Assembly: GCF_009827545.1 (NCBI RefSeq)
Contig: NZ_WTYS01000001.1
Coordinates: 2,629,772-2,693,771, forward strand
DNA from: Pontixanthobacter gangjinensis
GTDB lineage: Bacteria > Pseudomonadota > Alphaproteobacteria > Sphingomonadales > Sphingomonadaceae
Length of the DNA: 64,000 bases
Direction of reading: 5' to 3'
Position numbers and translations under genes: made by a program. Position 1 is the first letter of the stretch; each line of letters opens with the position of its first letter. Under the pieces are notes generated by a model. It was not told where the DNA came from. It saw only the letters and a list, made by a program, of their open reading frames with translations, and did no database searches. Shown in pieces: positions 40,032 through 45,756 of this stretch.

Positions 40032-41075
40032 TCAGGTTTCGTCGGCCAGCCCATGTTTCTTGATGCAATGGCGCAGTTGGTCATAGGTCAGGCCGAGAGC
40101 CTTGGCGGTTTGCCGCTGGTTCCAGCGGTGCTTGCCAAGCGCGTGTTCGACTATGCTGCGTTCATGGTCATCAACGGCGGCGCGCAGGTCACTGACCTCT
40201 TCAAGCGCGGCGGTTGAATTAGCCTGTGTTGCAGTCGCAGTTGCTGTAGGCTTGCCGGCATCGTCTGGGTCAAACGTGCGAGTTTTTGAGGGCAGCGGTT
40301 TCCAAGGCGAATCGAATGGATTGAATTGCACATGGCCAATCGGGTCTTTCCAATTGTCCCAGCGGTAAATCGCCCGCTCCACAACATTGCGCAATTCTCG
40401 GACGTTGCCCGGCCATTCATAATTGTCCAATTGCCTGGCGACGTGCGGGGCAAAACCGGGCCACCCTTCCCATCCGATTTCCGCAGCCATCCGCCGCCCG
40501 AAATAATCAACCAGCACTTCGACATCACCCTCGCGCACGCGCAGCGGGGGCAGCGTAATCACTTCAAAGGTGAGCCGGTCGAGCAAATCGGCACGGAAGG
40601 TTCCTTCTTCCGCCAACCGGGGCAGGTCTTCGTTTGTTGCTGCGACAATCCGGACGTCGACATTGATCGGGCGGGAGGATCCGATGCGGGTCACTTCGCC
40701 ATATTCAACCGCCCTCAGCAACCTTTCCTGCGCAGCCATCGACAGCGTGCCCAGTTCGTCGAGAAATAACGTACCTTTGTCGGCTTCTTCAAACCTTCCC
40801 GCGCGCGCTTTGGTAGCGCCGGTGAAAGCTCCTGCTTCGTGGCCGAACAATTCGGCCTCGATCAGCGTTTCGGGCAGAGCGGCGCAGTTCATCGTGACCA
40901 GCGGCTCTCCCCAACGTTCGGAGAGGCGGTGAAGGCGTTCGGCGATCAATTCCTTACCCGTGCCGCGTTCGCCGATCACCAGAACCGGACGGCGCATAGG
41001 AGCCGCGCGACTGGCACGCTCGACCGCATCAAGAAAGGCACCAGACTGGCCGATAAATTGATTTTCGCGCTCCAT
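40032..41075 (-). CDS. pspF: PspF, sigma-54-dependent activator of the psp operon
   Basis: A 347-residue enhancer-binding protein without a regulatory N-terminal domain. Walker A is GERGTGKE at 35-42, GAFTGA at 82-87 is the loop that contacts sigma-54, and TLFLDELG is Walker B. A C-terminal Fis-type helix-turn-helix (NQRQTAKALGLTYDQLRHCIKKHG) binds DNA. Unusually there is a 60-residue linker rich in Thr/Ala/Gln. PspF is normally held inactive by PspA. It is divergent from the psp operon. Confidence 0.95.
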   Translation of the reverse strand: MERENQFIGQSGAFLDAVERASRAAPMRRPVLVIGERGTGKELIAERLHRLSERWGEPLVTMNCAALPETLIEAELFGHEAGAFTGATKARAGRFEEADKGTLFLDELGTLSMAAQERLLRAVEYGEVTRIGSSRPINVDVRIVAATNEDLPRLAEEGTFRADLLDRLTFEVITLPPLRVREGDVEVLVDYFGRRMAAEIGWEGWPGFAPHVARQLDNYEWPGNVRELRNVVERAIYRWDNWKDPIGHVQFNPFDSPWKPLPSKTRTFDPDDAGKPTATATATQANSTAALEEVSDLRAAVDDHERSIVEHALGKHRWNQRQTAKALGLTYDQLRHCIKKHGLADET

Positions 41076-41104: not shown

Positions 41105-41123
41105 CTTGGCAATAGTCGCCAAG
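41105..41123. promoter_or_regulatory. Likely PspF upstream activating site
   Basis: CTTGGC and GCCAAG form a perfect 6-bp inverted repeat with a 7-base spacer, 53 bases before the -24 element of the sigma-54 promoter and 29 bases from the pspF start. Its position fits a PspF binding site, which in E. coli also reduces pspF expression. Confidence 0.6.
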
Positions 41124-41175: not shown

Positions 41176-41192
41176 TTGGCACACCCCTTGCT
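41176..41192 (+). promoter_or_regulatory. Sigma-54 promoter of the psp operon
   Basis: TTGGCACACCCCTTGCT matches the sigma-54 consensus: TTGGCAC (GG at -24), five bases, then TTGCT (GC at -12). It is 37 bases before the first ATG of the operon. Confidence 0.92.
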
Positions 41193-41229
41193 ATGTAATG
41201 AACAACACCAATCGGAAGGAAATCAAGCC

Positions 41230-41394
41230 ATGTATGACCGCAGCTTCTTTAAAAGCAAATTGGGTCAGGCTGCACTCGCCAGCATCGCAGCGATGTGCGC
41301 ATTTGTTGTTCTGAGTTCGCAAATGCAGTTCAGCCCCGCTTACGCTTCGGCGCATTCGGAAATCGTTCAGTTCGAAGCTGTCGAGCTGGCATGA
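41230..41394 (+). CDS. 54-residue membrane or exported peptide, first gene of the psp operon
   Basis: A small protein directly after the sigma-54 promoter, with a good GGAAGGA site. It has a basic start (MYDRSFFKSKLGQ), a single hydrophobic segment (about residues 14-33) and an acidic tail (AHSEIVQFEAVELA). SPAYA at about 36-40 could be a signal peptidase site, so it may be either an inner-membrane peptide or a short secreted one. I do not recognise a family. Its stop overlaps the next in-frame ATG (ATGA at 41391), which opens into the pspA frame. Confidence 0.8.
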   Translation: MYDRSFFKSKLGQAALASIAAMCAFVVLSSQMQFSPAYASAHSEIVQFEAVELA

Positions 41395-41420
41395 ACACCC
41401 CTTCCCCCACCAACCCCCTA

Positions 41421-41505
41421 GGGCCGGAGCGCGAAAAGAAGGCGCATCCCCAGTCTGGCGCCAACACCGCACACACCCCCCCACGCGGTTCAGGCGCTCC
41501 GGCCC
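41421..41505 (+). promoter_or_regulatory. 12-bp inverted repeat upstream of pspA
   Basis: GGGCCGGAGCGC (41421-41432) and GCGCTCCGGCCC (41494-41505) are exact complements, separated by 61 bases. In the mRNA this would make a strong stem between the small peptide gene and pspA. It could control mRNA stability or the ratio of peptide to PspA. Confidence 0.5.
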
Positions 41506-41672
41506 AAAATGTGGTGTCACGGTTCGAAGCCGAGGTTGAACGCCTCCGCACCAGCCCCACCCCAACGCAAACACCGGCACAGGCTTCAAAAAACTCGTTA
41601 CTTGCGGACTCTGGACAATCCACTTTCCGCGCAGATATCAAAGCCAATTTGTTCACCAATGGAGTACCCTTG

Positions 41673-42365
41673 ATGGGAATATTCAGTCGCACCCGTGATA
41701 TTATCGCCGCCAACTTCAACGACATGCTCGATAATGCCGATGATCCGGCAAAAATGATCCGCATGATCATCCTCGAAATGGAGGAAACTCTGGTGGAAGT
41801 GCGCGCATCCGCAGCACGCACCATTGCCGATCAAAAAGAAATGCACCGGCACACGGTTAAGCTTGACCGTTTGCAAGCCGATTGGGGCGAGAAAGCACAA
41901 TTGGCGCTTAGCAAGGATCGCGAAGATCTTGCCCGGGCAGCTTTGGTCGAGAAGAAGAAAGCTGGCGATATGTCAGAGCAACTGAAGGCCGAAATCGCCG
42001 TGCTCGACGACGCATTGCGCGCTTACGAGAAAGATATCGACAAACTGCAAAACCGCCTGCGCGAGGCCCGCAGCCGCCAGACCGCCATCGCGGCTCGTTT
42101 GGAAAGCGCAGAAAACCGGGTCAAGCTGCGCACGCTGATGTCGAACGAGCGGGTGGACGAGGCGCTGTCGCGGTTCGACCAACTCGAACGCCGGGTCGAT
42201 TACGCCGAAGGCCGCGCCGAATCGCTGTCACTGGCAGATGGATCCAAACAGCAGCCCTCTTTGTCAGACGAAATCGATGCGCTCGCAGGTGCCGATAAGG
42301 TCGATGAAGAATTGGAAGCAATGAAGGCAGCCCTGAAGGGTGCCGCACAAGATCAGAAGGACTAA
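41673..42365 (+). CDS. pspA: Phage shock protein A
   Basis: A 230-residue coiled-coil protein of the PspA/IM30 family. It binds stressed inner membrane to stop proton leak and inhibits PspF. It starts GIFSRTRDIIAANFNDMLDNADDP with an amphipathic helix, then MIRMIILEMEETLVEVRASAARTIA and long helical repeats. The ATG at 41673 has a GGAG site 8 bases away and fits the family start. The frame is also open for 94 codons upstream to an ATG at 41391 that overlaps the previous stop, so an N-extended form cannot be excluded. Confidence 0.95.
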   Translation: MGIFSRTRDIIAANFNDMLDNADDPAKMIRMIILEMEETLVEVRASAARTIADQKEMHRHTVKLDRLQADWGEKAQLALSKDREDLARAALVEKKKAGDMSEQLKAEIAVLDDALRAYEKDIDKLQNRLREARSRQTAIAARLESAENRVKLRTLMSNERVDEALSRFDQLERRVDYAEGRAESLSLADGSKQQPSLSDEIDALAGADKVDEELEAMKAALKGAAQDQKD

Positions 42366-42369
42366 GCCA

Positions 42370-42672
42370 GTGGATTTTCCAAGTGAAATTATCATCGTAC
42401 CGATACTCTTCATCGCGCTCCCGTGGCTGATTATGCATTATATCACCAAGTGGAAAACCGCTGGCACCATCACCAACGATGATGAGCAGCTACTTGATGA
42501 ATTGTATCACCTGGCCAAGCGTCTTGATGACCGGATGGACACAGTCGAGCGGCTCGTCGCCAGCGACAATCCTGACTACCGGCCAGCCAAATTGATGCAT
42601 GACCGCGATGTCGACAACCAACAATTACGCGAACTTGACCGCTTGATCGCCGAGAAGAAGGGACCCCAGTAA
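42370..42672 (+). CDS. pspB: Phage shock protein B
   Basis: A 100-residue membrane protein from a GTG (DFPSEIIIVPILFIALPWLIMHYITKW at the start). One helix is followed by a cytoplasmic coiled coil, DELYHLAKRLDDRMDTVERLVASDNPDYR, which matches the PspB end in E. coli (MRERIQALESILDAEHPNWR). With PspC it relieves PspA inhibition of PspF. Its stop overlaps the pspC start (TAATG). Confidence 0.92.
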   Translation: MDFPSEIIIVPILFIALPWLIMHYITKWKTAGTITNDDEQLLDELYHLAKRLDDRMDTVERLVASDNPDYRPAKLMHDRDVDNQQLRELDRLIAEKKGPQ

Positions 42673-43049
42673 TGACCAGCGAACGGACAACTCTTTACCG
42701 CGACAAACAGAACGCGAAATTGATGGGCGTGTGTTCGGGAATTGCCGACTACACCGGGGTCAACGCATTATGGGTTCGCCTTGGCTTCATAATCTTGTTG
42801 TTGACCATCGCGCCGATCCTGCTGCCTGCCTACTTCATCGCCGGTTTGCTTCTGAACAAGAAGCCCGCGCATCTTTATGTTGGCAAGGAAGAACAAAAAT
42901 ACTGGCAGGGCGTACGTCAAAGTCCGCAGCGCACCGCGCGACAGATCCGCAGCCAAATGCGCGATGTCGACCGCCGGCTAGCTGATATCGAAACATATTA
43001 CGTCACCAGCAATCCGCGCCTGACTGCAGAGATTGAACGGCTGCGCTGA
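42672..43049 (+). CDS. pspC: Phage shock protein C
   Basis: A 125-residue PspC. The N-terminal PspC domain has LYRDKQNAKLMGVCSGIADYTGVNALWVRLGF and two hydrophobic stretches to about residue 62. A basic, Arg-rich tail follows (RQIRSQMRDVDRRLADIETYYVTSNP). It senses stress at the membrane together with PspB. It is coupled to pspB and is 25 bases before the first PspB-like gene. Confidence 0.95.
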   Translation: MTSERTTLYRDKQNAKLMGVCSGIADYTGVNALWVRLGFIILLLTIAPILLPAYFIAGLLLNKKPAHLYVGKEEQKYWQGVRQSPQRTARQIRSQMRDVDRRLADIETYYVTSNPRLTAEIERLR

Positions 43050-43074: not shown

Positions 43075-43386
43075 ATGGGTGATCTAATTGGATTAGTCGC
43101 CGTATCGGCACCGTTCTTGATGGTCTTGGGGATCGTCTGGATTGGCAGCCAGAAGAAGTTGGAAGAGAAACGCATCGCAGCAACCGCTGAAATGAGTTCA
43201 GAGAAAGCGGCGCAATATGCCTCGCACACCGCCGAACTCGAACAGCGCGTCCAGGTACTCGAACGCATCGTTACCGATCGCGGCTATGACATTGCCACGC
43301 AGATCGAAGCCTTGCGCGACACTCGCGAAGTCAATCAGGCAAGCAGCGGTACGCCGCTGAATATCGCCAAAGCGGAGCGGGTATAA
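43075..43386 (+). CDS. PspB-like small membrane protein, paralogue 1
   Basis: A 103-residue protein with an N-terminal helix (about 4-24), a charged linker and a coiled coil with TAELEQRVQVLERIVTDRGYDIA. The last part, SGTPLNIAKAERV, is matched in paralogue 2. The coiled coil is like that of PspB but the rest is divergent. A ribosome site (GAGGGGAAAT) precedes the ATG. Its stop overlaps the next start (TAATG). Confidence 0.85.
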   Translation: MGDLIGLVAVSAPFLMVLGIVWIGSQKKLEEKRIAATAEMSSEKAAQYASHTAELEQRVQVLERIVTDRGYDIATQIEALRDTREVNQASSGTPLNIAKAERV

Positions 43387-43733
43387 TGAATTGGGGGAGT
43401 CCTGAATTTGTTATCGCCATCATTGCCGTTTCTTACGGCGCGTGGATCATCAACAACTGGATCCGTGCCAAGCATGGATACGAGCTGGAAGATGAATGGG
43501 GCGGCAAAACCAAACCCAAGGACACCGGCGAGATCAAACAGCTCCGCGCCGAAAATGCCGAACTGGTCGGCCTGCTGAAAGACCAGGGTAAACGGATGGA
43601 GACGCTCGAACGCATCGTGACCGACAAGGGCTACCGCCTGAATGAGGAAATCGAGGCGCTGCGCGATCTGCCCGATGCCACCAGTAACAATAGCGGCGTA
43701 CCGCTCAATATTTCGAAGAAGGAAACTGCCTGA
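43386..43733 (+). CDS. PspB-like small membrane protein, paralogue 2
   Basis: A 115-residue protein: one helix (about 7-23), an acidic linker, then KRMETLERIVTDKGYRLNEEIEALRD. The tail SGVPLNISKKETA matches paralogue 1 (SGTPLNIAKAERV), which supports a recent duplication. The stop overlaps the next start in TGATG. Confidence 0.85.
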   Translation: MNWGSPEFVIAIIAVSYGAWIINNWIRAKHGYELEDEWGGKTKPKDTGEIKQLRAENAELVGLLKDQGKRMETLERIVTDKGYRLNEEIEALRDLPDATSNNSGVPLNISKKETA

Positions 43734-44035
43734 TGCCAGAACTCGTCATCATCTTCAGCTTCGTGATTGTGGCTGCGCTGATTGTATTTGGCAGCGTGAT
43801 GTCGATGCACAAACGCCAAATTGCCTATAAAGAACGCCGCGATGCTGCTGAACGTGCAGATAGCAGCGCCAATCCGGTGGCTTCGGCAAAGAAAATTGAC
43901 CAGCTCGAACAGCGCGTCCGCGTTCTTGAACGGCTTGCAACAGATCGCGGCCAGGATCTAGCGGCCCAGATCGACGAATTGCGCAGCCTGCCTGATGCTG
44001 ACCTGAATTTCGCGACTAGGGAGAAAGTCCAATGA
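43733..44035 (+). CDS. PspB-like small membrane protein, paralogue 3
   Basis: A 100-residue protein with a helix at about 4-23, a charged Ala/Arg-rich linker and IDQLEQRVRVLERLATDRGQDLAAQIDELRSLPDAD. It lacks the PLNI tail. Its end overlaps the next gene by 4 bases (ATGA). Confidence 0.85.
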   Translation: MPELVIIFSFVIVAALIVFGSVMSMHKRQIAYKERRDAAERADSSANPVASAKKIDQLEQRVRVLERLATDRGQDLAAQIDELRSLPDADLNFATREKVQ

Positions 44036-44304
44036 GTTTCTGGACGGCAGTCGTCATAATCGTGGCCATCGGCGCCGTTACAAGTGTTTTTCGCGCACGA
44101 TACCGCGCCCAGGCGGGGATTATCGCCGACAAGCAGGGCAATGAGCAATATATCCAGCAAACCGACACTTCGGACAGGCGCGAGGTCGAAGAACTGCGCG
44201 AGCGGATCAAGGTCCTCGAACGGATTGCGACCGATGCCAACACTACGGAAAGCCTGAAAATCAGGCAGATTTCAGACGAAATCGAAAATCTCAGGGACAA
44301 ATAA
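44032..44304 (+). CDS. PspB-like small membrane protein, paralogue 4
   Basis: A 90-residue protein: a short helix (about 5-20), then EVEELRERIKVLERIATDANTTESLKIRQISDEIENLRDK. The RERIKVLERIATD segment is the closest of the five to E. coli PspB (RERIQALESILDAE). It ends before a small hairpin. Confidence 0.85.
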   Translation: MSFWTAVVIIVAIGAVTSVFRARYRAQAGIIADKQGNEQYIQQTDTSDRREVEELRERIKVLERIATDANTTESLKIRQISDEIENLRDK

Positions 44305-44310
44305 TCGAGC

Positions 44311-44334
44311 CGGTGCAGCAAATTATATGCACCG
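44311..44334 (+). promoter_or_regulatory. Stem-loop between PspB-like genes 4 and 5
   Basis: CGGTGCA and TGCACCG pair around a 10-base AT-rich loop. No T run follows, so it is more likely an mRNA processing or stability hairpin than a terminator. A GGGAGGA site for the next gene starts a few bases later. Confidence 0.5.
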
Positions 44335-44355
44335 CAAATCGGGAGGATTTGTGAA

Positions 44356-44613
44356 ATGAACGAACAGATCATCATGTATGGCACAGTGATAATAGGCACA
44401 GTGATTGTCGCCATGATCGCCTTGCGCGGTTGGCAGGGTTGGCTTGCCCTGAAAGAACAAGAACTCGACCGCCGTTCGACCCCGCTGCACCAGATGCGGC
44501 AGGATTATGAATTGGAACACGGTTCGCCGGTCGGCGCAGCCCGGATCGAAATCGCCGATCTGAAAGAACGCATCCGCAAATTGGAAGCCATCGCCAGCGG
44601 GGTGGATTTGTAA
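44356..44613 (+). CDS. PspB-like small membrane protein, paralogue 5
   Basis: An 85-residue protein with a helix at about 7-25 (YGTVIIGTVIVAMIALRG), a Gln/Arg-rich linker and IADLKERIRKLEAIASGVDL at the end. It has a good ribosome site (GGGAGGA) and is separated from paralogue 4 by 51 bases. It is the last gene of the array. Confidence 0.83.
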   Translation: MNEQIIMYGTVIIGTVIVAMIALRGWQGWLALKEQELDRRSTPLHQMRQDYELEHGSPVGAARIEIADLKERIRKLEAIASGVDL

Positions 44614-45046: not shown

Positions 45047-45394
45047 ATGCGGCCGCTATTTCTTGCGGGCGGTCTAATTGCGGTTGCTCTTGGCGCGATT
45101 GGTGCAGCCTTACCGATTATTCCGACCGTCCCGTTTTTGCTGCTCGCCGCATTCTGTTTTGCGCGGAGCAACCCCGAATGGGAACAACGCATGCTAAAAC
45201 ATCCGCAATGGGGCGCGCATCTGCGCGATTGGCGTGAACGCAAGGCGATCTCCCGCCGATCCAAAATTATGGCCATTGGCGCGATGACGGCCGGCGTAGT
45301 CGTTACTTGGCTCACGCTGGGCGTGCCCTATGTATATATTTCGATCGCCGTTCTGGTAATTTCCGGCAGTTGGATCGCAACCCGTAACGAGTAG
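45047..45394 (+). CDS. DUF454 (YbaN-like) membrane protein
   Basis: A 115-residue protein with helices at both ends and a central HPQWGAHLRDWRERKAISRRSKI, the DUF454 signature. Function is unknown. The gene starts one base after sufE, so the two are probably one transcript. Its last codons (CGT AAC GAG TAG) are the first copy of a five-unit 15-bp repeat that extends past the stop. Confidence 0.88.
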   Translation: MRPLFLAGGLIAVALGAIGAALPIIPTVPFLLLAAFCFARSNPEWEQRMLKHPQWGAHLRDWRERKAISRRSKIMAIGAMTAGVVVTWLTLGVPYVYISIAVLVISGSWIATRNE

Positions 45395-45455
45395 GCCCGT
45401 AACGAGTAGGCCCGTAACGAGTAGGCCCGTAACGAGTAGGCCCGTAACGAGTAGG
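45381..45455. repeat. Five perfect 15-bp tandem repeats over a stop codon
   Basis: The unit CCCGTAACGAGTAGG is repeated exactly five times. The unit length is a multiple of three, so each copy carries the same Arg-Asn-Glu-stop in the frame of the DUF454 gene. Four stops follow the real one. The repeat looks like slippage or recent duplication. Confidence 0.97.
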
Positions 45456-45756
45456 CGCCGAGCCAACGCTGATCGGGACAGGTTTCCATAAATCGGCTGC
45501 GCTGCTTGGCCGCCCTAACCAGCCTCGAAAAATTGTCGGCGCAGAATGAATTTTCCTACACGATGTTGCCGCGCTAGTCTCGCAGTCGCTCTTTCCCATC
45601 GTTAGTCAATTTGGCCGCATTTACTAAAGCCGCGGAATTGGCACCCGGGCAAATGTGTCACCTGTTCTCCAACAGAGTAATTTAGGAAAATCAGTGCTGT
45701 AGCGCAGGTGTGTTAGGTTGCAGGTGTCACCCTAAACCCCATATTTAGCGGTCAGG
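45395..45756. other. Spacer between DUF454 and crtZ
   Basis: The first 61 bases are the rest of the 15-bp repeat array. The remaining 300 contain no gene or recognisable RNA. A pair of CAGGTGT copies near 45704-45727, with a GGTGTCACC, gives weak dyad symmetry. No strong terminator is seen for either convergent gene. Confidence 0.6.

Follow-up and report, generated by a model that had tools for sequence, protein, structure and literature searches.

The bacterial ESCRT-III protein PspA contacts the membrane through its N-terminal helix. SecM and other regulatory leaders carry a signal-like N-terminus and are encoded by an open reading frame (ORF) lying directly before the regulated gene, in which they resemble the peptide described here. 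In Bacillus subtilis, LiaI of the liaIH operon tethers LiaH, a homologue of PspA, to the membrane (PMC9239133), and YjiS of Salmonella (DUF1127, 54 aa), a small membrane-associated protein, co-purifies with PspA (PMC11707872). PspD is reported only from Gammaproteobacteria in a Psp survey (PMC11237479). An earlier note on the present DNA knew of no Psp component in the form of a 54-residue peptide encoded ahead of pspA, and literature searches likewise found none that matches. A word search in two large Psp surveys returned no such gene, and no relevant paper emerged on a small gene ahead of pspA, on isoforms of PspA or on Psp in sphingomonads. Neither this peptide nor a long PspA appeared in the literature covered, which includes only a minority of subscription journals, so that absence is not proof.

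The locus lies in a genome assembly of one contig (2.89 Mb). The window, that is, the whole 64-kb stretch of DNA that was analysed, contains the following features, given in window coordinates:

40032..41075, reverse strand: pspF, encoding the divergent sigma-54 activator (TIGR02974 above cut-off)
41105..41123, no strand assigned: palindrome CTTGGCAATAGTCGCCAAG, a putative PspF activator site, from reading the sequence
41177..41192, forward strand: sigma-54 promoter TGGCACACCCCTTGCT, a perfect site
41214..41221, forward strand: ribosome-binding site GGAAGGAA of the peptide gene, preceding the ATG
41230..41394, forward strand: gene for a 54-aa small membrane protein, opening the psp operon (position and protein-level conservation)
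41391..42365, forward strand: predicted long PspA form, 324 aa, with a start that overlaps the peptide stop (ATGA)
41391..41672, forward strand: N-terminal PspA extension, 94 aa, Pro-rich, with motif SRFEAEVERLRTSPTPTQ (conserved motif columns)
41421..41432, forward strand: 5' arm of an RNA stem, GGGCCGGAGCGC (RNAalifold)
41494..41505, forward strand: 3' arm of the RNA stem, GCGCTCCGGCCC (RNAalifold)
41661..41664, forward strand: internal ribosome-binding site GGAG for canonical PspA (invariant GGA codon)
41673..42365, forward strand: canonical PspA (MGIFSRTRDI...; TIGR02977, PF04012)
42370..43049, forward strand: pspB and pspC (TIGR02976 and TIGR02978 above cut-off)

The peptide gene is thus a member of a sigma-54-led transcription unit beside pspF, together with pspA, pspB and pspC. 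Promoter TGGCACACCCCTTGCT is the sole match to TGGCAC-N5-TTGCW in the window and is separated by 37 nt from the start of the peptide ORF; a sigma-54 site of the same pattern is found 5' of the peptide gene in 119 of 121 loci, and a sequence resembling the palindrome (GGCAATA...CCAA) was seen 5' of the promoter in several relatives. As the earlier note had described, the first gene after this promoter is the 54-residue peptide and not pspA, its ATG is preceded by a strong ribosome site, and the ORF encodes one hydrophobic segment followed by an acidic tail.

Several neighbouring elements were also observed. Five tandem small ORFs lie 3' of pspC (43075-44613, forward strand), all of PspB-like build with a hydrophobic stretch at the N-terminus; some give weak TIGR02976 or TIGR02978 matches below the cut-off, and relatives occur 3' of pspA in 70-78 of 80 loci. 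Duplicated pspB genes are reported in one Psp survey (PMC11237479). A 15-bp unit, TAACGAGTAGGCCCG, is present in about five copies at about 45386-45457, at the end of a DUF454 gene and overlapping its stop codon. On the other side, a secretin gene (PF00263; 38297-39922, reverse strand) adjoins pspF. Misplaced secretins induce Psp; as a functional clue this neighbour was rejected, since it adjoins in just 1 of 69 related loci.

At E <= 1 the peptide (MYDRSFFKSKLGQAALASIAAMCAFVVLSSQMQFSPAYASAHSEIVQFEAVELA) has homologues in 38 of the 98 relatives, and 24 of these remain at E < 0.01; with E <= 0.01 as the limit, a profile of it matches 140 of the 397 genomes of the family. Locus extraction yielded 121 distinct sequences in which a homologue lies between the sigma-54 site and pspA, so that the frame is conserved in relatives, and in the same place. 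An SD-like 4-mer precedes the start in 119 of these 121. A second set, partly overlapping the first, consisted of 80 named loci picked by PspA alone, of which 78 had enough upstream sequence. Here a homologue was present in 77 of 78 loci (Erythrobacter, Qipengyuania, Pontixanthobacter, Novosphingobium and others): it was detected by profile in 76, is strongly diverged in L283, and is reduced to a six-codon remnant in L254. Across 40 independent close pairs, pN/pS of the peptide is 0.465 in frame, compared with 1.03 and 1.42 in the shifted frames, and the in-frame value is below 1 in 40/40 pairs. This frame-specific selection rules out a chance ORF or an untranslated leader, and the comparative evidence points to translation of the frame and to selection on its product. 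The peptide matched no family in Pfam or NCBIfam, and gave no hit at E <= 1 to the PspB models (PF06667, TIGR02976) or the PspC models (PF04024, TIGR02978). It had no match in PHROGs; a plasmid or phage origin was set aside, as no match was found.

Constraint within the peptide is uneven, with pN/pS of 0.36 for the N-terminus and hydrophobic helix (residues 1-31), 0.72 for the linker and 0.19 for the last four residues, V-E-L-A; the first and last of these are the parts under highest constraint. Positions A14, S18, A21, M22 and Q31, within or at the end of the helix, are near-invariant. The AlphaFold model places a 24-residue helix at residues 10-33 (pLDDT about 90) after a short helix at 4-8. 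In all 121 homologues the net charge ranges from 0 to +4 in the N-terminal flank and from 0 to -4 in the tail, which under the positive-inside rule predicts an N-in, C-out orientation. Membrane insertion is well supported and the topology is inferred from these charges; the peptide is most likely a single-pass inner-membrane protein with its N-terminus inside.

The earlier note placed the peptide ahead of pspA, and that order stands, but the next gene is not limited to the canonical PspA start (Met at 41673). An ORF beginning at 41391 overlaps the peptide stop (ATGA) and is open and in frame with PspA, an overlap and in-frame coupling to an N-terminally extended PspA that the note had missed. 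Such a start is found in 114 of 121 loci. In 112 of the 114 clean cases the TGA stop and the start codon (ATG, GTG or TTG) share bases in the pattern GC[A/G/T]TGA, and in some genera the long-form start lies up to 19 nt past the peptide stop. The start sits 132 to 342 nt 5' of the canonical Met; since none of the 114 clean cases has an intervening stop, the extension is not a separate ORF. On the long ORF the profile matches begin at residue 95 (TIGR02977) and residue 96 (PF04012). The extension carries the motif SRxxxEVERLRxSPTPTQ (fuller conserved form SRLDxEVERLRxSPTPTQ) and has a pN/pS of 0.60 in frame versus 1.11 and 1.29 in the shifted frames. In the model of long PspA it has low confidence and is mostly disordered, with a short helix at 44-54 and another helix at 78-89, the latter just before PspA.

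The canonical start has nonetheless retained a ribosome site of its own. Four codons ahead of the canonical Met, the Gly codon is GGA in 114/114 loci, and again in 76/76 named loci, compared with GGA at about 8% of the Gly codons in the PspA core. An SD 4-mer precedes the long-form start in only 39 of 114 loci; a weak site of this kind is what coupled re-initiation would lead one to expect. A selected extension combined with a conserved internal GGAG makes two PspA forms the natural reading, with the long one probably coupled to the peptide.

Within the extension, RNAalifold predicts a 12-bp stem with both-sided changes in four pairs. The double-change cells numbered 15, compared with 4.2 after shuffling and with far lower values for slid versions, in an alignment of 27 sequences that were selected from 54 with a PLGPE-like motif and that left out a few stemless relatives (L006, L007 and L016). 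When no such selection is applied, 84 of 114 loci have a best inverted repeat that exceeds those of codon-shuffled versions. Not all loci have the stem, and a role in slowing ribosomes on their way into the long form is a guess.

Taken together, these features suggest a small inner-membrane Psp protein that is real and made with the long form, and whose likeliest role is that of a membrane partner placing or tuning PspA; this account has close to an even chance of being right. PspF and sigma-54 would switch on the peptide jointly with pspA. The basic N-terminus of the peptide would remain in the cytoplasm, residues about 10-33 would form one membrane-spanning helix, and the short acidic tail ending in V-E-L-A would face the periplasm. 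Ribosomes finishing the peptide would re-initiate at the overlapping start to give long PspA with its disordered N-terminal extension, and other ribosomes would start at the internal GGAG site to give canonical PspA. The peptide would then place or tune PspA at the membrane in step with the long form. The sequence itself shows the existence of the peptide, its conservation as a protein, the promoter, the overlap, the in-frame extension and the internal ribosome site; the synthesis of both PspA forms and the partnership with PspA are inferred. Such gene order, co-regulation and coupling of translation are what partners typically show, and they favour this role here, as does the fact that LiaI does likewise for LiaH. 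Against it, PspB and PspC are already membrane partners of PspA in known systems, and in many relatives the peptide could be cleaved at a signal peptidase (A-x-A) site, after which no anchor would be left.

The main rival is that the peptide is chiefly a regulatory leader ORF, whose translation and termination at the overlap would set the amount of long PspA, helped by the hairpin and a C-rich stretch behind the overlap, while the product itself would matter little. The overlap or a close junction in nearly all loci, the weak ribosome site of the long form and the conserved 12-bp stem in the extension are all in keeping with this. In L154 and L254 (Erythrobacteraceae CFH 75059) the peptide is reduced to the six-codon remnant ATGAGGACCGTGATGCGATGA (MRTVMR*), with the ATGA overlap and the PspA extension retained; the peptide can thus be lost, and coupling is separable from the peptide sequence and can outlive it. 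GTG and GAG are also modestly enriched in the last codons (p 0.013 and 0.0003), as though they contributed to a ribosome site for the following start. As the whole reason for the conservation of V-E-L-A, such a site was rejected, because the codons vary (GTG/GTC/GTT, GAG/GAA) while the residues mostly stay, and because the SD 4-mer is so infrequent; a weak contribution of these codons to a ribosome site remains. The selection on the amino acids of the helix and of the last four residues also speaks against a mere leader, as does L283, where the helix has diverged yet the peptide still ends in MVELA. Furthermore, the peptide appears too short for its helix to exit the ribosome before termination, which would make a SecM-like stall at the membrane hard. 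A role mainly as a leader is unlikely, with perhaps one chance in four, and it is compatible with that of a membrane partner.

Less probable still is a secretory signal peptide cleaved at the A-x-A site, releasing about 10-15 residues ending in V-E-L-A to the periplasm. The peptide has the basic n-region and hydrophobic core of a Sec signal peptide, and the site proposed in the earlier note behind the hydrophobic segment is present in the window (PAYA|S) and enriched in the family, occurring in 73 of 121 homologues versus 37.5 in shuffled tails (maximum 50). Also in keeping with secretion, the first psp gene of some Sphingomonas-type relatives encodes a signal-bearing TonB_C-like or UrcA protein. 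By contrast, a correctly placed A-x-A is missing from 48 of 121 homologues (about 40%), which nevertheless retain the helix and, for the most part, the C-terminal motif, so that the action outside the cell suggested in the note is not supported as a general function. The modelled helix of 24 residues could span the membrane, and the part presumed to be released evolves fastest, its last four residues excepted. The membrane-inserted state is taken as general, with cleavage possible in those lineages that have A-x-A, the window included, and secretion possible in part of the family.

The first psp genes of other loci were compared with the peptide. In 25 of 31 loci of the family not captured by the profile, the interval from the sigma-54 site to pspA holds an ORF that is preceded by an SD and encodes an N-terminal hydrophobic segment (shuffled expectation 0.3 on average, maximum 2). 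The count in 15 loci from other families of the order is 0. The first gene encodes an exported TonB_C-like protein in L177, L178, L181, L205 and L289, a UrcA family protein behind a signal peptide in L187, and a signal peptide with just a short tail in L175 and L185. That the peptide is the decayed remnant of an ancestral exported TonB_C-like protein, of which the signal peptide alone was left and kept for translation coupling, is very improbable: a similar signal peptide does carry either a TonB_C domain (L177, L181) or a short tail (L175, L185), but comparison of the window peptide with the signal peptides encoded by the Sphingomonas-type first genes gave an hhalign probability of 28%, which does not establish homology, and a remnant would not retain so low a pN/pS over its four final residues.

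Different ORFs were seen in this position further afield. In five loci from other families of the order (L189, L193, L194, L197, L202), the stretch from the sigma-54 site to pspA contains an ORF of about 50-60 residues that lacks a hydrophobic segment and has a basic C-terminus (MN.L...D..DRE...RRRxRxRR). In six loci of more distant alphaproteobacteria (L291, L292, L294, L297, L299, L302), the ORF before pspA resembles a tail-anchored small membrane protein ending in ..RxxExWLFFxAGxxxGxxL, and in L292 a weakly DUF1127-like ORF lies ahead of it.

Returning to the membrane partner, the operon seems to yield an additional component as well as two forms of PspA. A stronger proposal, tentative and with roughly one chance in three, is that the peptide is an undescribed Psp component whose translation is coupled to that of an N-terminally extended isoform of PspA, the ratio of long to short form controlling polymerisation. 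If this is true, termination and re-initiation at the end of the peptide would set the long/short PspA ratio at stressed membranes. An extension of 45-115 residues before the PspA helix, in a second isoform coupled to a membrane peptide, would offer a natural experiment on the control of PspA assembly. The locus also suggests that Psp surveys can miss the first gene of an operon and the true start of the second. Other alphaproteobacterial psp operons tend to open with small, seemingly unrelated ORFs, pointing to a general slot before pspA for a membrane or regulatory small protein.

Set against the known systems, the peptide is much shorter than SecM and has no known arrest motif that was recognised, and YjiS has a DUF1127 domain, which the peptide does not match. 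PspB, PspC, PspD and PspG are, like the peptide, small membrane proteins of the PspF regulon; unlike them, the peptide is encoded before pspA and not after it, and has no Pfam or NCBIfam match. LiaI differs in its regulator, being controlled by LiaRS and not by PspF and sigma-54, and the comparison concerns how the two might work, no sequence relation having been found in a comparison limited to family profiles. Like LiaI, the peptide is a small membrane protein whose gene shares a stress-induced operon with that of a PspA homologue, and it occupies a LiaI-like position, its predicted helix being encoded directly before the PspA homologue.
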